DNA of 64,000 nt, from contig JAADHK010000045.1 in assembly GCA_013151835.1 (NCBI GenBank), forward strand, positions 1 through 64,000. Reading direction: 5' to 3'. Below, in pieces: positions 2,144 through 12,121 of this stretch. This DNA is from Deltaproteobacteria bacterium (GTDB lineage: Bacteria > Desulfobacterota > Desulfobacteria > Desulfobacterales > Desulfosalsimonadaceae). The first letter of the stretch is position 1. Every line of letters begins with the position of its first letter. A model generated the notes under the pieces. That model saw only the letters and a program-made list of their open reading frames with translations. It did not search any database and had not been told where the DNA came from. Made by a program: the position numbers and the translations under genes.

Positions 2144-3682
2144 CTACAGACCCCTCATGCTCCGAGGCGGATTCTGTTTCAGGTATTCCAGCCGGTTTAA
2201 GCCGTTAACATAGGCATAGGCGCTGGCGGTTATGATATCCGGATCCGAGCCCTTGCCTATGGATATAAGCCCGGCTTCGGACAAACGTACGGTTACCTCA
2301 CCCTGGGCGTCGGTTCCACCGGTGAGCGCGGAGATGGAAAAGCGTTCAAGCTTTGATTCCGTGCCCGTAATTTTTGCAATGGCATTATATACCGCGTCTA
2401 TGGGGCCGTTACCGCTGCCGGTATCAAACACCTCCCGCCCCTCTATCATGAGCTTGACCGATGCCGTGGGAAGCACGGTAGTTCCCGCGCTCACATTCAG
2501 GTATTCCAGGGAATAGGTATCTGACGTCCTGAGGACCACTTCGTTTACAAGGGCTTCGAGGTCGTCGTCCAGCACAATTTTTTTCTTGTCTGCCAGATCC
2601 TTGAATTTGGCGAACAAGAGTTTAATCTCTGCGTCGGAAAGGTCATATCCCATTGCCATGAGATGTTTTTTTAAGGCATGCTTTCCCGAGTGTTTTCCCA
2701 TTATCAGTTTATTTGCGGAAAGTCCGATGGTCTCGGGTCGCATTATCTCATAAGTCATGGGGTTTTTGAGCATCCCGTCCTGGTGAATTCCGGCTTCGTG
2801 GGCAAAGGCATTAGCCCCCACAACGGCTTTATTGGGTTGTACGATGATTCCCGAAATCATACTGACCAGGCGGCTGACGGAGTATATCCGTTTGGTCCGG
2901 ATGTTCGTTGAGACCGGCATGTCGCTGGGCCGGGTCTTTATGATCATTACGACCTCTTCTAAGGAGGTATTGCCCGCCCGTTCCCCGATTCCGTTGATGG
3001 TTACTTCGACCTGGCGTGCGCCGGCGTGGATTGCGGCTATGGTGTTGGCCGTGGCAAGGCCGAGATCGTTATGACAGTGTACGCTCAATATGGCCTTGTC
3101 GATATTTGACGTATGTTCCTTCACATAACGGACCAGGCGGCCGAATTCTTTTGGTATGGCATATCCCACAGTATCCGGGAGGTTCACGATCTTCGCTCCG
3201 GCATCTATAACCGCCGAGAAAATCTCGCAGAGAAAATCCGGATCGCTTCTTGATCCGTCCTCGGCTGAAAATTCCACGTTTTCGGTAAATGAACATGCGT
3301 ATTTAACGGCGTCAACAGCGGATTTCAAGACCTCGTTTCGTTCCATGTTGAGCTTGTATTTCATGTGAATATCGGAGGTGGCAAGAAAGGTATGAATCCT
3401 GGGCCGGGCCGCTTTGCACACAGCCTTCCATGCACGGTCAATATCAGGACGGTTTGCCCTGGCAAGGGCGGTTATGTCGGCCTTTGTCACCTTTTTTGCC
3501 ACGGCTGCAACCGCCTCGAAATCACCTGCGGAAGCCGCCGGAAAACCGGCCTCGATCACGTCTACGCCGAGCTTTTCAAGCTGTGTTGCAATCCTGACCT
3601 TTTCAGCCGTGTTCATGCCCGCACCCGGGGACTGTTCCCCGTCTCTTAAGGTAGTGTCGAAAATAAAGAGTTTTTCTTTCAT
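2144..3682 (-). CDS. leuA: 2-isopropylmalate synthase
   Basis: A 512-residue enzyme that condenses acetyl-CoA with 2-oxoisovalerate in the first committed step of leucine synthesis. The HMGL-like barrel opens with FDTTLRDGEQSPG (residues 8-20) and carries the metal-binding VHCHNDLGLA (201-210; His202, His204) and NGIGERAGNTS (230-240). HEAGIHQDG follows at 295-303. Residues from about 370 onward form the LeuA allosteric dimerisation domain that usually binds leucine. Length is typical of full LeuA. It is the last gene of the ilvD-ilvB-ilvN-ilvC-cimA-leuA operon, 21 bases after cimA. leuB, leuC and leuD are not in the window. Because CimA products use the same LeuBCD enzymes, this operon's two Claisen enzymes feed both leucine and isoleucine routes. 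Confidence 0.95.
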   Translation of the reverse strand: MKEKLFIFDTTLRDGEQSPGAGMNTAEKVRIATQLEKLGVDVIEAGFPAASAGDFEAVAAVAKKVTKADITALARANRPDIDRAWKAVCKAARPRIHTFLATSDIHMKYKLNMERNEVLKSAVDAVKYACSFTENVEFSAEDGSRSDPDFLCEIFSAVIDAGAKIVNLPDTVGYAIPKEFGRLVRYVKEHTSNIDKAILSVHCHNDLGLATANTIAAIHAGARQVEVTINGIGERAGNTSLEEVVMIIKTRPSDMPVSTNIRTKRIYSVSRLVSMISGIIVQPNKAVVGANAFAHEAGIHQDGMLKNPMTYEIMRPETIGLSANKLIMGKHSGKHALKKHLMAMGYDLSDAEIKLLFAKFKDLADKKKIVLDDDLEALVNEVVLRTSDTYSLEYLNVSAGTTVLPTASVKLMIEGREVFDTGSGNGPIDAVYNAIAKITGTESKLERFSISALTGGTDAQGEVTVRLSEAGLISIGKGSDPDIITASAYAYVNGLNRLEYLKQNPPRSMRGL

Positions 3683-3703: not shown

Positions 3704-5320
3704 TTACGCTTTGTTTCCATTGACCTTTCCGGCATTGTCCAGCTTGAACTGGACGCTGTCCGCCAGAGCCTGCCAGCTGGCTTCTATGATATCCTCTGAT
3801 ACGCCTATGGTGCTCCAGACATTGTTTTCATCGCGCGATTCGATAAGCACTCTAACGCGTGCCGCTGTTCCTTCCCGGCCGTCCAATACCCTGACCTTAA
3901 AATCCACCAGATGCACCGGGTCGAGCACATTGGCATACACGTTATTTAAAGCCTTGCGAAGGGCGTTGTCCAGGGCGCTGACCGGACCCGTGCCCTCGGC
4001 CGCCGTGATCTCTTCCACGCCCCCGTCCACCCGGATCTTGATGATGGCGTTTGACCGGCAGGGCCGGTCGCGGTCCTTTTCAACCGTGACCCTGAATGAA
4101 TCGAGTTCAAAGCCGGCCTTAAACTGGCCCGAGAGCTTTTCCATCAGGATTTTAAATGACGCATCCGCCATGTCAAACTGGAAGCCTTCGTTTTCCAGGC
4201 GTTTGATCTCGGTTATGACGGCAGAGCTGTCCGTCCCGTCTCCGTCCAGGGATATCCCGAATTCCCTTGCCCTGTATTCCATGTTGCTCTTGCCGCCAAG
4301 GTCGGAAACCAGAACGCGCCGTTTGTTCCCCACAAGCAGCGGGTCCATGTGTTCGTATGCCCGGGGCTCCTTCATTATGGCGTTTACATGAACTCCGGCC
4401 TTGTGTGCAAAAGCGCTCTTTCCCACAAAGGGCCTGGCGTTTAAGGGCGTCATATTGGCGATTTCGCTCACAAAAAGAGAGATGCTCCTGAGTCGGGCCA
4501 GGTTTTCGTCTGAAATACAGTCATACCCCATCTTGAGCTTTAAAATGGGTATGATGGATGTCAGGTCGGCGTTTCCGCACCTTTCTCCATACCCGTTGAT
4601 CGTTCCCTGGACCATGGTTGCTCCGGACCGCACGGCCGTGATGCTGTTGGCAACCGCCATGCCGGTATCGTTGTGAGTGTGAATCCCTATGATTACCGGC
4701 TGGTTTGAGGATTTTTCGATAAAATCGCAGACCCTGCCCACGGCAGATTCAACCTCGTGGGGCAGGGTGCCCCCATTGGTATCGCACAGGACAATGGCTT
4801 GCGCACCGGCGGTTGCAGCGGTTTCAATGGTCTTTAAGGCATAATCCGGGTTTTCCCTGTACCCGTCGAAAAAGTGCTCGGCATCATAGATCACTTCCAG
4901 ATTATTTGCCTTAAGATAGGCAACCGAATCGGCGATCATGTCTATGTTGTCGGAAAGTCCGATACCAAAGACCTTTTCCACATGGAGATCCCATGATTTT
5001 CCGAAAATTGTACCCGTGGAAACCCCGGTCTGGATAATGGCGTTTAAATGCCTGTCAGACTCCGCCTCGATACTTGCCCTCCGGGTGGATGCAAATGCAA
5101 CAAGACGCGAGTTTATAAATCGTTCCTCACGGGCTTTTTCGAAAAAAGCGGTGTCTTTTTTTGTTGACCCGGGCCATCCTCCCTCGATGTAATGGATGCC
5201 CAGCTCGTCAAGCTTTTTTGCGATTTTAAGCTTGTCTTCGGCCGTGAAGTTGATTTTCTCGCCCTGGGTTCCGTCCCGTAAGGTTGTATCATAGAGCAGA
5301 ATTTTTTTCATGACAGACAT
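3704..5320 (-). CDS. cimA: (R)-citramalate synthase
   Basis: A 538-residue paralogue of LeuA in the CimA/TIGR00977 group. It condenses pyruvate with acetyl-CoA to (R)-citramalate, the threonine-independent entry to isoleucine. Seen motifs: YDTTLRDGTQGEKINFTAED (10-29), GGWPGSTKKD (47-56, characteristic of this subgroup rather than LeuA), IHTHNDTGMAVAN (213-225) and NGYGERCGNADL (242-253), with a C-terminal regulatory domain from about 400. Starts at 5320 (MSVMKK) or three codons later at 5311 are both possible. It lies between ilvC and leuA in the operon. Its presence without a threonine deaminase gene in the cluster indicates that 2-oxobutyrate comes from citramalate through LeuCD and LeuB. 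Confidence 0.93.
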   Translation of the reverse strand: MSVMKKILLYDTTLRDGTQGEKINFTAEDKLKIAKKLDELGIHYIEGGWPGSTKKDTAFFEKAREERFINSRLVAFASTRRASIEAESDRHLNAIIQTGVSTGTIFGKSWDLHVEKVFGIGLSDNIDMIADSVAYLKANNLEVIYDAEHFFDGYRENPDYALKTIETAATAGAQAIVLCDTNGGTLPHEVESAVGRVCDFIEKSSNQPVIIGIHTHNDTGMAVANSITAVRSGATMVQGTINGYGERCGNADLTSIIPILKLKMGYDCISDENLARLRSISLFVSEIANMTPLNARPFVGKSAFAHKAGVHVNAIMKEPRAYEHMDPLLVGNKRRVLVSDLGGKSNMEYRAREFGISLDGDGTDSSAVITEIKRLENEGFQFDMADASFKILMEKLSGQFKAGFELDSFRVTVEKDRDRPCRSNAIIKIRVDGGVEEITAAEGTGPVSALDNALRKALNNVYANVLDPVHLVDFKVRVLDGREGTAARVRVLIESRDENNVWSTIGVSEDIIEASWQALADSVQFKLDNAGKVNGNKA

Positions 5321-5426
5321 CTCGTTTTTACAAAAACATTATAAAAAATGCGGCCCCCGGCAGTATCAATTAATAAAGCCGGACGCCGCAAGTGGATATG
5401 TTCCGTTATCTTATGGCTTGAGTTTA

Positions 5427-6473
5427 TTAACGTCTGCTGGGCCTCAAAGAACGGACTGCGGCGCCGGTCTTCCACATTTCGGAATTTTTAATGGCATCCA
5501 GTTCTTCGGTCATTTTTTCCTTGTAATCAGGAGCGCCGTTGGATTCGATTACGCGCTTTGTCTCCCTGCCGGATTTAACGCTTTCATAAAGGTCTTCAAA
5601 AACAGGCAGAACCGCGTCCCTGAATTTAGGAGCCCAGTCAAGCGCACCCCGCTGAGCCGTGGCGCTGCAGTTTGAAAACATCCAGTCCATGCCGTTTTCG
5701 TCCACGAGACGAATCAGGCTCTGGGTCAGTTCCTCGACCGTTTCATTAAAAGCCTCGCTTGTTGAATGGCCGTTTTTACGAAGCGTCTTGTACTGGGCCT
5801 CCATGACACCCGCAAGGCATCCCATGAGCACGCCCCGCTCGCCCGTAAGGTCGCTGTAGACTTCTTTTTCAAAGGTCGTGGGGAAAAGATATCCGGAGCC
5901 AATGGCGATCCCGAGTGCAAGCGTCCGATCCATGGCCCTGCCGGTTGCGTCCTGGAAAACGGCGAAGCTGGAATTGATTCCGCTTCCATCCAGAAAATTT
6001 CTGCGCACGCTTGTGCCCGAGCCCTTGGGGGCGGCAAGAATCACGTCAATGTTATCGGGCGGAATGACCCCGGTCTGTTCCTTGTACACGATTGAAAATC
6101 CATGGGAAAAATAAAGGGCATCCCCGGGATTCAGGCACTTTTTGATCTTGGGCCAGACCGCTGCCTGGCCCGCGTCTGAAATGAGCATCATGATGATGGT
6201 CCCTTTTTTTGCCGCCTCTTCGATAGGGAACAGGCTCTCGCCGGGTACAAACCCGTCCTTGATTGCCTTTTCCCAATATTCGTCGCCTTCGAGCTGGCCT
6301 ATGATTACGTTAATACCGTTGTCTTTCAGATTTAAGGCCTGGGCCGGTCCCTGAACTCCGTATCCGAGGACCGTTATGGTTTCATTTTTCAGTATTTCAC
6401 GGGCCTTCTCAATGGGGAACTCGTCTGCCGTGACCACGTCTTCCACCATGCCGCCGAAATCTATCTTTGCCAT
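5427..6473 (-). CDS. ilvC: ketol-acid reductoisomerase (predicted NADH-preferring)
   Basis: A 348-residue class I (short) enzyme that isomerises and reduces acetolactate or acetohydroxybutyrate. The nucleotide fold begins LGYGVQGPAQALNLKDNG (36-53). Most NADPH enzymes have the following loop as GLRxGSxSW; here it is GQLEGDEYW (59-67), with the phosphate-contacting Arg and Ser positions replaced by Leu, Asp and Tyr. Acidic replacement of those serines is known to favour NADH, so NADH use is inferred. The knotted C-terminal domain carries the conserved acidic metal-binding segments. A good Shine-Dalgarno (AAAGGAGG) lies about 9 bases upstream of the ATG at 6473. It follows ilvN after a 114-base gap in which I see no gene, and precedes cimA by about 106 bases. 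Confidence 0.94.
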   Translation of the reverse strand: MAKIDFGGMVEDVVTADEFPIEKAREILKNETITVLGYGVQGPAQALNLKDNGINVIIGQLEGDEYWEKAIKDGFVPGESLFPIEEAAKKGTIIMMLISDAGQAAVWPKIKKCLNPGDALYFSHGFSIVYKEQTGVIPPDNIDVILAAPKGSGTSVRRNFLDGSGINSSFAVFQDATGRAMDRTLALGIAIGSGYLFPTTFEKEVYSDLTGERGVLMGCLAGVMEAQYKTLRKNGHSTSEAFNETVEELTQSLIRLVDENGMDWMFSNCSATAQRGALDWAPKFRDAVLPVFEDLYESVKSGRETKRVIESNGAPDYKEKMTEELDAIKNSEMWKTGAAVRSLRPSRR

Positions 6474-6587: not shown

Positions 6588-7070
6588 TTAACCGCGCGAA
6601 AGGGCAATACACCCTGTTTTTGCGATTTCCCGGATACCGAACGGTTTTAAAAGATTCAATATGGCATTAATTTTCGATGTGTCGCCGGTAACCATTATCA
6701 TGAAATGTTCCTGGCTCACATCTAACACCTGACCCCTGAAAATATCCGTGATCCTGAGGATTTCGGCCTTGTGGTCCGGTTTCGCGTTTACCTTGATCAG
6801 GGCCATCTCCCTTTTCACATATTCCTGGCCGGTTAAATCTATCACCTTGATTACATTGATGAGCTTGTTGAGCTGTTTTTGTATCTGTTCGAGAATCGGC
6901 GGGCTGCCCGATGTAACCATTGTCACGCGGGAAACCTTGGGGTCGGTGGTTTCAGCAACACTCAGGCTTTCGATATTATAGCCGCGTCCGGAAAAAAGGC
7001 CGGTTATACGGGAAAGCACTCCGGGCTCATTGTCTACAAGAATAGAGAGTAGCTGTTTTTGAACTTCCAT
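6588..7070 (-). CDS. ilvN: acetolactate synthase small (regulatory) subunit
   Basis: A 160-residue regulatory subunit of acetohydroxyacid synthase. The N-terminal ACT domain (LSILVDNEPGVLSRITGLFS, residues 8-27) binds valine in characterised homologues and confers feedback inhibition. The C-terminal half has the second ACT-like domain ending KTGCIALSRG. Length matches IlvH/IlvN proteins. The gene follows ilvB, separated by a 124-bp palindromic repeat whose far end forms the ilvB stop codon. The catalytic and regulatory subunits are thus transcribed together but with an unusually structured junction in the mRNA. Confidence 0.94.
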   Translation of the reverse strand: MEVQKQLLSILVDNEPGVLSRITGLFSGRGYNIESLSVAETTDPKVSRVTMVTSGSPPILEQIQKQLNKLINVIKVIDLTGQEYVKREMALIKVNAKPDHKAEILRITDIFRGQVLDVSQEHFMIMVTGDTSKINAILNLLKPFGIREIAKTGCIALSRG

Positions 7071-7121: not shown

Positions 7122-7245
7122 GGCTTTGTAAAAAGTTCCGTATGCAAGGCGCGCGAGCCGGGAAAGACCGAAGGCGTACATGTAGTACGTTGAGAGCTTT
7201 CCAGGCGAGCGCAACGCCGCAGACGGTCTTTTTACGGAGCCGTCA
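7122..7245. repeat. palindromic repeat, family A, copy 1
   Basis: A 124-bp imperfect palindrome between ilvB and ilvN. The left end reads GGCTTTGTAAAAAG and the right end CTTTTTACGGAGCCGTCA. Inside these are matching arms (GCAAGGCGCGCGAG and GCGAGCGCAACGCCGCAGAC) and a central GTACATGTAGTAC. A second copy sits at 63619-63743 with the same layout and very similar sequence. Reading from the minus strand, the element starts TGACGGCTCCGTAAAAAG and its TGA is the stop codon of ilvB. It is consistent with a REP/MITE-like non-autonomous element; no transposase is visible nearby. Confidence 0.85.
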
Positions 7246-8928
7246 TACCAAAAGCATCTTGTTAATGGGCGCTCCCGCCGGCACCATGGGATACACGCTT
7301 TCCTCGGGTTCAACGATAAAATCCATGACCACCGGCTTGTCGGTCGCAAGCGCTTTTTCTATTACGGCCTCGACTTCTTCGGGTTTGTTCGCTCTGAGCC
7401 CCACGGCTCCGTATGCCTCCGCCAGGCGCACGAAATCAGGCGAGTGCGAAAAATGGGTCGAGGAATAGCGGCGGTCATAGAAAAGCTCCTGCCACTGCCT
7501 AACCATCCCGAGAAATCCGTTGTTCAATATCGCCACCTTGACCGGCAAATTGTATTGAACAGCCGTGGCCAGCTCCTGTATATTCATCTGGATGCTACCG
7601 TCACCCGCGATGTCGATCACTGTTTTGTCGGGAAAACCCGCCTGCGCACCAATGGCCGCCGGCAGACCGAAACCCATGGTTCCAAGTCCACCCGACGAGA
7701 TGAACTGCCCGGGACGATTGAAATGATAGTACTGGGCCGCCCACATCTGGTTCTGTCCGACCTCCGTTGTGATGATGGCGTTTCCACCGGTCAGCTCATA
7801 GAGCTTTTCCACCACGAATTGGGGCTTGATCGTTTCCTTCTGATCATATACAAGGGGTGTGCTTTTTTTCCATTTTTCTATCCTGGTAAGCCATGCCTCG
7901 TGTTTCGCTGCTATTTTACCACGGTCCATTTGCTCAAGCAGATCGTTTAAGAGTTCGAGCGTTATTCTGCAATCCCCAACCACAGGCACCGAGACAGGCA
8001 CGTTTTTCTGGATCGAAGTGGGATCTATGTCTATCTGGATGATTTTTGCGTTTGGCGCAAACTCGTCGGTCTTTCCGGTCACGCGGTCGTCGAACCTCAC
8101 CCCCACGGCGATCATGAGATCACACTCGGATATGGCCATGTTGGCACGATAGGTTCCATGCATTCCAAGCATCCCGAGCCACAGCGGGTCTGTTCCCGGA
8201 AAGGCTCCTAACCCCATGAGAGAACCTGTTACCGGGATGCGTGTTTTCCTGGCCAGGGTCGTCAACGCCTCATGGCCCAGGGAGAGATTCACCCCGCCTC
8301 CGGAAAAAATAACCGGCATTTTCGCCTTTTCAATTAATTCGGCAACCTTTTTTACCTGACGGATATTGGGCTTGTATGTCGGATTGTATGATTTCATGCG
8401 AACGTCACCCAAAGGGTTGTAAGTCGCCGTCGAATTGATCATATCCTTGGGCAGGTCCAGGAGCACGGGCCCGGGTCGGCCGGAACGGGCGATGTGAAAG
8501 GCTTCCTTTATCTTTGCCGCAAGACATCTGACATCCTTTACAAGATAGTTATGCTTGGTGCATGGCCGGGTGATTCCCACGATATCGACTTCCTGGAAGG
8601 CGTCATTGCCTATAAGTGGTGTCGGCACCTGTCCGGTTAAAATCACAACAGGAATAGAGTCCATGTATGCGGTTGCAATCCCGGTGACCGTATTGGTTGC
8701 ACCCGGACCCGAAGTCACGAGGCATACCCCAACTTTGCCGGTGGCGCGGGCATATGCGTCGGCGGCGTGAATGCCTCCCTGTTCGTGCCTTGGCAGGATA
8801 TGCCGGATATTTGAATCCATGAGCGCGTCATAGATGTCTAATACTGCTCCGCCCGGGTAGCCAAATATGGTGTCCACACCTTCTTCCTCGAGCATTTTCA
8901 ACAGAATCTGGGCGCCTTTGAGTTTCAT
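7243..8928 (-). CDS. ilvB: acetolactate synthase large (catalytic) subunit
   Basis: A ThDP- and FAD-dependent enzyme making acetolactate (valine/leucine) or acetohydroxybutyrate (isoleucine). I choose the ATG at 8928 ([17 protein letters not shown]), giving 561 residues, because family homology starts there; an upstream in-frame start at 8973 would add 15 unrelated residues. Seen: [15 protein letters not shown] near the N-terminus, [18 protein letters not shown] with the catalytic Glu, the central FAD/structural domain, and the ThDP-Mg motif [15 protein letters not shown] to [13 protein letters not shown]. The last codon is followed by a TGA contributed by the end of repeat family A. Second gene of the operon, 66 bases after ilvD. 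Confidence 0.95.
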
Positions 8929-8994
8929 TGGGGTACCTTTATTGTTGTTGCAGGTTTTTAGTTCTCGGACCATGGTCCTTTTGTCCGCAGTCCT

Positions 8995-10662
8995 CTACAA
9001 ACATATCGCCCCTTTGTCGGCTGATGATACCTGCCGGGCATAACGGGCCATGTATCCGGAAGTGATTTTCGGCTCGGGGGCCTTCCAGTCGGTTTTTCGC
9101 TTTTCAATCTCTTCTTCGGAAACCTTTAATGTTATGTTCTTTGCCGGAATATCAATAGCTATCATATCGCCTTCGCGTACAATGGCGATAGTCCCTTTTT
9201 GCATGGCCTCGGGCGAAACATGACCGATGGCGGCTCCCCGGGTGCCTCCTGAAAAACGGCCATCCGTGATGAGGGCCACATCGGCATCAAGACCCATTCC
9301 GGCAATTGCAGAGGTTGGAGTGAGCATTTCGCGCATGCCGGGCCCGCCCTTGGGGCCTTCATACCGGATTACGATTACATCACCCTTTTTTATCTGCGCA
9401 GACAAGATGGCCTTTGTGGCGTCCTCCTCTGATTCATAGATCCGGGCCGGGCCCTCATGCTTCAGCATCTCTTTGGCGACCGCAGACTGCTTGACCACGC
9501 ATCCGTCCGGCGCCAGGTTGCCGAACAGGATGGCGAGCCCTCCTTCTGCGTGATATGCCTTATCCATGGGCCTTATAACATCGGCGTCAAGGACGGGGGC
9601 GCTTGATATGTTTTCGCCCACGGTTTTACCCGTCACCGTGATGCAGTCCTCGTTTATCAGTCCTGCGCCCGACAGGGTCTTAAATACCGCCTGGATTCCG
9701 CCGGCGTAGTCAAGGTCCTCTATGCGATGGGGTCCGGCCGGGCTGAGCGAACAAAGGTGCGGTGTTCGTTTGCTTATTGTGTTTATCATATCAAGGTTGA
9801 AGTCGAGCCCGGCCTCGTGAGCGATGGCAGCCAGATGCAGGGTTGTGTTGGTGGAGCATCCAAGGGCCATGTCAACCGAAAGTGCGTTTTCAAGGGCTTT
9901 GTCCGTCATGATTTTGCTCGGGGTTATGCCTTTTTCAAGTAGGCTCAAAATCTGGATTCCCGCCTGTTTGGCAAGCCGAAGCCTTGCGGACATTACGGCC
10001 GGAATCGTCCCGTTTCCGGGGAGGCCCATGCCGATGGCTTCTGTCAGGCAGTTCATGGAGTTGGCCGTGAACATACCCGCGCATGACCCGCAGGTGGGAC
10101 AGGCGGAATCTTCAATGGCAGTTAGTTCGTTTTCCGTCATATTGCCGGAGCGCACGGAACCCACAGCCTCGAATACCGAGATCAGGTCGATCTTCTTGTG
10201 CGGATTCGACGGATGTCTTCCGGCAAGCATCGGCCCTCCGCTGATGAATATGGTGGGCAGATCAAGCCGGGCTGCGGCCATGAGCATGCCGGGAACGATC
10301 TTGTCACAGTTGGGGATCATAACCATGGCGTCAAGGGCGTGGGCCGTCGCCATTATCTCAACCGAGTCCGCGATAATTTCGCGGCTGCCCAGGGAATATT
10401 TCATCCCGATATGATTCATGGCGATGCCGTCACACACGCCGATGACGCCGAATTCAACGGGTGTGCCTCCCGCCATGTAAATTCCCGCCTTGACCGCCTC
10501 TGCAATCTGATGAAGGCCGGCGTGTCCGGGAATAATGGTGTTTGCGGAGTTGGCGATGCCGATAAGAGGCCGCCTGATTTCGCCGTCGGTATATCCGATG
10601 GCTTTTAGCAATGATCTGTGTGGAGCCCTTTCAATTCCCTTTTTCGCGCTGTCACTCTTCAT
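8995..10662 (-). CDS. ilvD: dihydroxy-acid dehydratase
   Basis: A 555-residue Fe-S dehydratase producing 2-oxoisovalerate and 2-oxo-3-methylvalerate. Cluster and substrate motifs are visible: [21 protein letters not shown] and [19 protein letters not shown], then GLPGNGT. The C-terminal swivelling domain has [20 protein letters not shown]. It is the first structural gene of the operon. It starts about 22 bases downstream of the intrinsic terminator at 10685-10722, so read-through of that terminator should control the whole cluster. Such clusters are usually oxygen sensitive, in keeping with an anaerobe. Confidence 0.95.
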
Positions 10663-10684
10663 GATTTTCCCCTTTTGTGTAAAA

Positions 10685-10722
10685 AAAAACCGCTATCAGT
10701 TTTTCGGCTGATAACGGTTTTT
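10685..10722 (-). terminator. attenuator terminator in the ilv leader
   Basis: On the minus strand a hairpin with arms AAAAACCGTTATCAG and CTGATAGCGGTTTTT (one mismatch, loop 10700-10707) is followed by a run of T (to about 10680). It is an intrinsic terminator placed between the leader peptide stop (10762) and the ilvD start (10662). In that position it would end transcription before the operon unless an alternative fold forms. The competing antiterminator pairing was not resolved by eye. Confidence 0.85.
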
Positions 10723-10761
10723 AAGGAAGTTGAAAAAACTAGGAACTTGCTTTCGCCATTA

Positions 10762-10848
10762 TCAACCCTGCCGAAGGCGTACAACCTGTACGCCGGGTAC
10801 GGCTACAATTAGAAGTATAAGGCTGAAAATGGCAATACGTTCTTTCAT
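10762..10848 (-). CDS. branched-chain amino acid leader peptide (attenuator)
   Basis: A 28-codon minus-strand frame, ATG at 10846-10848 and TGA at 10762-10764. It starts MKERIAIFSLILLIVAV and ends with a tail rich in Val and Leu (GVQVVRLRQG). About half the residues are Ile, Leu or Val, including the run SLILLIVAV, as expected of a ribosome-stalling leader for Ile/Leu/Val operons such as ilvGMEDA. It lies 39 bases downstream of a promoter with a perfect -35 box and upstream of an intrinsic terminator. When charged branched-chain tRNAs are scarce the ribosome would stall here and permit read-through into ilvD. The ribosome-binding site is weak (ACGGGAA). The sequence is not related by eye to the enterobacterial leader, so this is a functional rather than a homology call. 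Confidence 0.8.
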   Translation of the reverse strand: MKERIAIFSLILLIVAVPGVQVVRLRQG

Positions 10849-10886
10849 TTTATAAAAATTCCCGTTTACTTTTGATTTATCTGCAT

Positions 10887-10915
10887 CTTTAACAACAAAA
10901 AAAATCCAATGTCAA
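10887..10915 (-). promoter_or_regulatory. sigma-70-type promoter of the ilv-leu operon
   Basis: Minus strand: -35 TTGACA (10915-10910, perfect consensus), 17-base spacer, -10 TTAAAG (10892-10887). Transcription would start near 10880, about 32 bases before the leader peptide ATG. The surrounding DNA is A/T rich. The sulfotransferase gene ends about 50 bases further upstream, so the operon has its own promoter. Confidence 0.7.
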
Positions 10916-10966: not shown

Positions 10967-12121
10967 TTAATCCCCATCCGTCGGGAAACCGAACCGCTCA
11001 AAAATCGGCTTGAAATCGGCGATAATCCGCTCTTTTGTCAGGCCGTATTGTTCAAGCGAATAGGCATGATTGCTTTTATAGTTTTTCGCCCGGTCCGTTT
11101 CCTGTTGAAGCAATTGCCGGTAATGATCAGACATATGATACCCGAATCGATCATACAACATCGTGACAAAACCGCCCGGATCGGACACCAGGTGGTCATA
11201 TTTTTCCACCGCCCGGTTGTTTTCCGGCCGACGATCTAGCTGGTCTATGGGGTAGGTGTACCAGTTTGATATCATGGACAATATTTTTTCCGTCATCACG
11301 GGCTGGTCGGCTGTGTTAAATCGCGCGAATCCGTAGGATATCCAGCTGATGGCGGACGGGACGGCCTCAAAGGGGGTTCTTACCATGCAGACGATCTTCG
11401 CATCCGGAAAGGTCTCGTAAATCGAATTGATTTTACTGCTGGAGGCCGGGTTCTTGGATAAAAAATGCTTGTTTGAGCCGAAAACATAAAGATGCCTTTG
11501 TACGCATTTTTTGTAAAATTTCATGATCGCTTTGCGCTGTTTCGGGTCAATATTCATATCAAACCGGCTGAACCGTTCCATCTCTTCAAAGGGGAACATA
11601 AATGCGAGAAACAGGGATGAAAAAATATGGATCAGGACAATCTCGTCCTCTTCGGGCTCAAAATGGCTGATCCGGTGCATTGTGCGGGAACCGGCAAACG
11701 CCTTGTCCTCTATGGCGATCATCAGACGGTACAGCGGCTTGCCGATCAGCCGGTCAGCCTTTCCCAGAAGCAAAAAGAATTTTTTCTGGATAATCGATGG
11801 CGCAACAAGGATCTCCCAGAGCCTGAGAGATGTAAACCGATCTTCATCATTGTTGATCAACCGATGTAGAAACGTGGTGCCGCCCCTTGGAAAACCCAGC
11901 ACAAAAAGGGGTTTGTTTACAACAATTTTTCGGTAGCCGGGGAAGAAAATTTCATCCAAAAACAGGCAGATCCAGGTGATAACTTCCTGCAGGAGAAAGA
12001 ATATGGGGAAAAAAATGATAAAACACACCCTTTTGAACGTAAAGCGTGCGCCGGTGGTGTGATAGGCAAAAATCGATTTGATCCACATGCGGATCATCAA
12101 CCCTGCATTAAATGTCATCAT
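10967..12121 (-). CDS. sulfotransferase family protein (PAPS-dependent)
   Basis: A 384-residue protein. A hydrophobic N-terminal stretch (about residues 32-60, FIIFFPIFFLLQEVITWICL) could anchor it to the membrane. The sulfotransferase P-loop-like motif FVLGFPRGGTTFLHRLI (73-89) binds the 5'-phosphosulfate of PAPS. Further on, FLSKNPASSSKINSIYETFP and PDAKIVCMVRTPFEAVPSAI form the 3'-phosphate-binding region (Arg/Ser). Overall resemblance is to the Sulfotransfer_3 group, whose acceptors are often lipids or carbohydrates; the acceptor here is unknown. The downstream alpha/beta hydrolase ends 13 bases before this start, so both are probably co-transcribed. Confidence 0.8.
   Translation of the reverse strand: MMTFNAGLMIRMWIKSIFAYHTTGARFTFKRVCFIIFFPIFFLLQEVITWICLFLDEIFFPGYRKIVVNKPLFVLGFPRGGTTFLHRLINNDEDRFTSLRLWEILVAPSIIQKKFFLLLGKADRLIGKPLYRLMIAIEDKAFAGSRTMHRISHFEPEEDEIVLIHIFSSLFLAFMFPFEEMERFSRFDMNIDPKQRKAIMKFYKKCVQRHLYVFGSNKHFLSKNPASSSKINSIYETFPDAKIVCMVRTPFEAVPSAISWISYGFARFNTADQPVMTEKILSMISNWYTYPIDQLDRRPENNRAVEKYDHLVSDPGGFVTMLYDRFGYHMSDHYRQLLQQETDRAKNYKSNHAYSLEQYGLTKERIIADFKPIFERFGFPTDGD

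Follow-up and report, generated by a model that had tools for sequence, protein, structure and literature searches.

Ribosome-mediated attenuation is a textbook mechanism, and the enterobacterial leaders ilvL, ivbL and leuL work in this way. The ilvGMEDA (ilvL) and ilvBN (ivbL) operons of enterobacteria combine a multivalent Ile/Leu/Val leader with a protector, an antiterminator and a terminator for the control of ilv genes (PMC3783181, PMC1183508). The attenuator described here, located upstream of ilvD in the window (the whole 64,000-nt stretch of DNA that was analysed), has the same components, but it shows no visible sequence relation to ilvL or ivbL, would govern ilvD-ilvB-ilvN-ilvC-cimA-leuA as one unit, carries an internal hairpin within its 1:2 helix, and belongs to a group in which one core sequence serves several branched-chain amino acid (BCAA) operons across an order. 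Starvation-sensitive Leu codons also serve leader-peptide attenuation in leuL (Rfam Leu leader) and in the Lactococcus Leu/phe leader (RF01743), whereas the window leader is of the Ile/Leu/Val type; the versions that precede cimA or leuA in relatives are rich in Leu. For the Corynebacterium ilvBNC operon (ilvB-II motif), published accounts describe an upstream ORF with alternative hairpins before the ilv genes (PMC11857589, PMC10272879), and runs of I/V/L codons have been reported in its leader (PMC1262725). That system is actinobacterial and has a different gene order. Finally, the catalogues of proteobacterial attenuators (Vitreschak 2004; Lopatovskaya 2010) concern systems of this type, for which conserved complementary triples are on record (as cited in PMC1262725); a conserved core is therefore not in itself new.

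Searches against Rfam, at gathering score and with E-values up to 10, returned no relevant match, either for the window or for 15 related loci, and the Leu leader, Leu/phe leader and T-box models did not match the window attenuator. A search of the openly accessible literature turned up no account of BCAA attenuators from Desulfobacterota. The RNA family thus appears to be undescribed in this phylum, where the regulation of BCAA synthesis has seemingly received little description in general, and the 2010 survey of Lopatovskaya et al. (cited in PMC4833913) may have predicted some of its members. The mechanism is classic; what is apparently new is an RNA family that a large group of sulfate-reducing bacteria has retained. 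It gives well over a hundred genomes a concrete RNA element that can be tested, and its loci constitute a covariance-model seed that is absent from Rfam.

The ilvD leader and its operon

On the minus strand of the window, the order of elements is TTGACA-17-TTAAAG (10915..10887), leader ORF, terminator and ilvD (Table 1). The initial annotation had placed a transcription-attenuation module at 10685-10915, and its main parts held up: the 28-codon Ile/Leu/Val-rich leader is present as claimed at 10848..10762, the terminator hairpin with a T-run near ilvD was borne out by folding, and NCBIfam equivalogs confirmed the identities and order of ilvD, ilvB, ilvN, ilvC, cimA and leuA. The span is correct for the module, except that its end at 10685 omits the last T residues. 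Regarding the proposed promoter, the -35 assignment is supported by relatives, 94 of 109 of which carry TTGAC 25-110 nt upstream of the leader (8.2 expected from shuffles), but the -10 element is weak. A promoter-consensus scan of the window called no promoter before the leader, probably because the candidate -10 matches at only three positions of six. Upstream, about 50 nt separate the -35 element from the end of a sulfotransferase-like ORF (10967..12121, minus strand; named from its sequence, with no NCBIfam match). Since the terminator scan called nothing between the two, readthrough from this ORF into the leader is possible.

Table 1. Features of the ilvD attenuator and the downstream operon (window coordinates)
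Feature	Coordinates	Strand	Description
-35 element	10910..10915	-	TTGACA; assigned by sequence and by TTGAC upstream of the leader in relatives
Candidate -10 element	10887..10892	-	TTAAAG; 17-nt spacer after the -35; 3/6 matches, weak
Leader peptide ORF	10762..10848	-	28 codons, MKERIAIFSLILLIVAVPGVQVVRLRQG followed by the stop; control codons ~5-17
Segment 1 (protector)	10821..10833	-	GCCATTTTCAGCC (RNA GCCAUUUUCAGCC); leader codons 6-10; minimum free energy (MFE) pairing and covariation
Internal hairpin	10776..10794	-	GGCGTACAGGTTGTACGCC; within the leader ORF, flanked by segments 1 and 2; small, strong hairpin with an 8-bp MFE stem
Segment 2	10755..10767	-	GGTTGATAATGGC (RNA GGUUGAUAAUGGC); covers the leader stop TGA (UGA)
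Segment 3	10706..10717	-	CCGTTATCAGCC; common to antiterminator (2:3) and terminator (3:4)
Segment 4	10690..10699	-	CTGATAGCGG; terminator 3' arm
Intrinsic terminator	10681..10722	-	15-bp hairpin (10722-10685), then a T-run as far as 10681
ilvD	8995..10662	-	first structural gene; TIGR00110, E 3.9e-242
ilvB	7243..8973	-	TIGR00118, E 8.4e-255
ilvN	6588..7070	-	TIGR00119, E 1.1e-62
ilvC	5427..6473	-	TIGR00465, E 5.1e-94
cimA	3704..5320	-	TIGR00977, E 1.6e-209
leuA	2144..3682	-	TIGR00973, E 8.6e-212

The leader peptide contains 13 I/L/V among its 28 residues, and a density of at least eight I/L/V per 12 residues is reached by only five of the 547 window ORFs that start with ATG and span 20-40 codons, the ilvD leader included. 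Apart from a convincing ribosome binding site, the sequence-testable defining features of leader-peptide attenuators are present; before the leader there is a weak candidate, CGGGA, and no good Shine-Dalgarno sequence. The conservation of the leader frame within the family and the order argues for its translation. The terminator folds into a 15-bp stem with an 8-nt loop (-19.2 kcal/mol, z -6.27), followed by nine T at 10689-10681; 18 nt lie between its end and the ilvD ATG. A simple terminator scan did not call it, though it is unambiguous by folding, likely due to the stem running into the T-tract. Downstream, ilvD is a single-copy gene in this genome; at the far end of the operon, an ORF on the plus strand (1709-2125) lies downstream of and convergent with leuA and has weak similarity to BrnA/VapB antitoxins.

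Folding, conservation and covariation of the four-segment switch

The initial annotation had also named two findings that would refute it, namely the lack of a mutually exclusive antiterminator fold and a loss of the BCAA-rich leader frame in relatives that keep the terminator; neither was borne out. Folding revealed a complete four-segment switch, in which a 2:3 antiterminator of 12 contiguous pairs (GGUUGAUAAUGG:CCGUUAUCAGCC) is accompanied by a 1:2 protector, the pairings 1:2, 2:3 and 3:4 being mutually exclusive. In the MFE structure of the full leader, 1:2 and 3:4 are formed (-63.1 kcal/mol, z -7.1), and when segment 1 is withheld and the transcript ends at segment 3, the 12-bp 2:3 duplex forms (-37.3 kcal/mol, z -4.1). 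Even with segment 1 missing, the equilibrium of the full transcript lies towards 3:4. Antitermination must therefore be kinetic and co-transcriptional, as in known attenuators, given that 3:4 is favoured once segment 4 is present. For the internal hairpin, we can offer a guess: it is possibly a pause hairpin for RNA polymerase.

In the alignment, relatives were found to keep both the BCAA-rich leader frame and the terminator. Within the family, each of the 30 ilvD orthologues for which upstream sequence was available has a leader, which starts with ATG, comprises ~27-35 codons, is located 182-233 nt before ilvD in the same layout, and contains 8-11 I/L/V in its best 12 residues. Terminators are likewise present in the aligned upstream regions of relatives; at L058, the terminator is plain in the sequence, though misread by the automatic terminator finder. 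Across the order, the leader precedes most ilvD orthologues of at least 68% identity, the exceptions being L047, L057, L064, L092, L100, L103 and L104. The leader was not found upstream of more distant IlvD-like paralogues (57-61% identity or below), nor in any of the 47 upstream regions taken from the phylum outside the class. The last 80 nt before ilvD at L098 retain a terminator with the conserved core next to a degraded BCAA leader, an apparent intermediate in the loss of attenuation.

We regard it as very probable that the ilvD leader is a classic ribosome-mediated transcription attenuator. What the sequences show is the anatomy with its mutually exclusive pairings, together with conservation, covariation and codon bias; we infer that the leader is translated, that ribosomes stall on uncharged tRNA, and that transcription does terminate or read through. 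In this scheme, a ribosome would translate the Ile/Leu/Val-rich peptide as RNA polymerase moves along the leader. A shortage of any one of the three aminoacyl-tRNAs should stall the ribosome at about codons 5-17, where it would mask segment 1, so that segment 2 would pair with nascent segment 3 in the 12-bp antiterminator and ilvDBNC-cimA-leuA would be transcribed. With ample aminoacyl-tRNAs, the ribosome would proceed to the stop inside segment 2, masking this segment and allowing the 3:4 terminator to form. If no ribosome is present, segment 2 would be sequestered by 1:2, and 3:4 would again terminate transcription.

We then analysed 110 leaders aligned across the order, the segments being matched up by sequence rather than by pairing. 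The 2:3 duplex was more stable than its shuffles (z<-2) in 106 of the 110 leaders and the 1:2 duplex in 75. Standard pairs made up 84% of positions in 1:2, 95% in 2:3 and 91% in 3:4, as compared to at most 43% in a slid control. Double changes numbered 51, 23 and 22 for 1:2, 2:3 and 3:4, respectively, exceeding the maxima of 37, 11 and 16 from 500 partner swaps; the partner-swap and shuffle controls ignore relatedness, whereas the slid control does not. In the modelled absence of a ribosome, 1:2 had a median probability of 0.82 over the 110 relatives, falling below 0.5 in 22% of loci. With segment 1 masked, the median for 2:3 was 0.99 (above 0.5 in 97% of loci), and with a ribosome placed at the stop, the median for 3:4 was 0.92 (above 0.5 in all loci). 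As modelled, these states fit the demands of the mechanism.

The leader as a probable sensor and competing readings

Because many short ORFs encode real small proteins, we considered whether the leader might yield a functional small hydrophobic membrane peptide that simply has its own terminator, the operon not being regulated by its translation. The peptide is indeed hydrophobic and conserved in character. Its frame and I/L/V richness are kept, yet its residues drift freely among I, L and V, and the conserved RNA core meets its C-terminal part in varying frames. With respect to the leader stop, which lies inside segment 2 at the same or a close position in relatives, segment 2 is read in three frames (88, 19 and 3 loci), G-stop and L-I-M being two of the readings; being read in more than one frame, the core points to selection on the RNA nucleotides, not on the end of the peptide. 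Moreover, segment 2 is complementary to segments 1 and 3, with covariation, and the ORF is lost where ilvD sits in another context. A further point against a membrane peptide is that Leu content tracks the downstream operon: Leu accounts for a share of 0.33 of the I/L/V codons in ilv leaders versus 0.46 in cimA/leuA leaders (p=3e-9), and Leu runs reach at least three in 32 of 37 cimA/leuA leaders and are at most three in all 139 ilv leaders. Taken together, we judge a membrane peptide to be a very improbable explanation.

The choice of Leu codons was also distinctive. CTT, CTC and CTA represent 78% of the leader Leu codons, and 83% outside segments 1 and 2, versus 36% in the ilvD genes, where CTG accounts for 44%. 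In E. coli, CUU, CUC and CUA are low-rate Leu codons that vary upon starvation (PMC3783181), and a leu attenuator with CUG put in place of CUA is less sensitive (PMC1183508). The CTT-rich usage could partly reflect constraints of RNA structure. Both the codon choice and the shift in Leu share would fit control by charged tRNA, as deduced from the sequences.

The exceptional conservation of the core GGUUGAUAAUGG/CCGUUAUCAGCC over the order, as can be seen for binding sites, might suggest a riboregulator that binds a protein or ligand (T-box, riboswitch or RNA-binding protein) and switches between terminator and antiterminator, the ORF being incidental. We give this reading very little credence, since the window and the 15 related loci are devoid of Rfam matches, no aptamer-like domain lies upstream of the ORF, segment 1 is carried by the leader codons themselves, and complementary triples of this kind are already known from proteobacterial leader-peptide attenuators (PMC1262725). 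That the main role of the leader lies in translational reinitiation or coupling at ilvD, and not in terminating transcription, is hardly credible at all: the proposal that leader genes near structural genes raise translation by reinitiation (PMC4833913) applies to short distances, and here the leader stop and ilvD are ~100 nt apart, with a strong terminator in between.

Distribution of the attenuator core

We followed the core of the attenuator by searching 84,980 species genomes with the pattern TGATAATG-N20..50-CCGTTATCA-N4..20-TGRTARCGG. The pattern occurred in at least 116 stretches and, among the matches listed, all were labelled Deltaproteobacteria or Desulfobacterales-type, except one. 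This exception, L239 (DAOVIP010000061.1), is a MAG labelled Candidatus Aminicenantes with an attenuator before cimA, and may represent a mislabelled bin or a horizontal transfer. Where the sequence suffices, the first gene after the core is nearly always ilvD, ilvB, cimA or leuA. A core match on the strand opposite ilvB at L216 was discarded, being explained by the palindromic terminator. In the phylum set, 13 of 297 genomes contained the pattern, as compared to none of the 297 for a reversed control pattern. Eight of these 13 matches come from two families beyond the class, where the gene that follows is cimA, leuA or ilvB. The window genome has a single copy of the core, and BLAST against plasmids gave no match. 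One attenuator core is thus reused before several operons, with the control codons shifted to match the pathway, and the family offers a way to find genes that cells treat as BCAA supply.

Several attenuators precede other kinds of operons. L213 carries two of them in tandem (5280-5460 and 6046-6160, minus strand) before a VorB-type 2-oxoacid:ferredoxin oxidoreductase cluster, the second leader reading, by eye, MKVIPQNMIGIIRAAGMRKTSLLLLLTVGSLKLPGLIMP; this arrangement hints that the enzyme is run for BCAA supply. At L230, L252 and L296, attenuators with Ile/Leu-rich leaders stand before acyl-CoA dehydrogenase operons followed by etf-like genes. We tentatively entertain the idea, which we consider possible but on balance doubtful, that a single attenuator family spread by duplication through Desulfobacterota, and that its BCAA regulon extends past the textbook pathway to 2-oxoisovalerate:ferredoxin oxidoreductase (VOR) and acyl-CoA dehydrogenase/etf clusters. 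If true, VOR and acyl-CoA dehydrogenase/etf would serve BCAA supply in these anaerobes, for example by reductive carboxylation of branched-chain acyl-CoA. At L252, a 2-hydroxyacyl-CoA dehydratase-type activase is located upstream.
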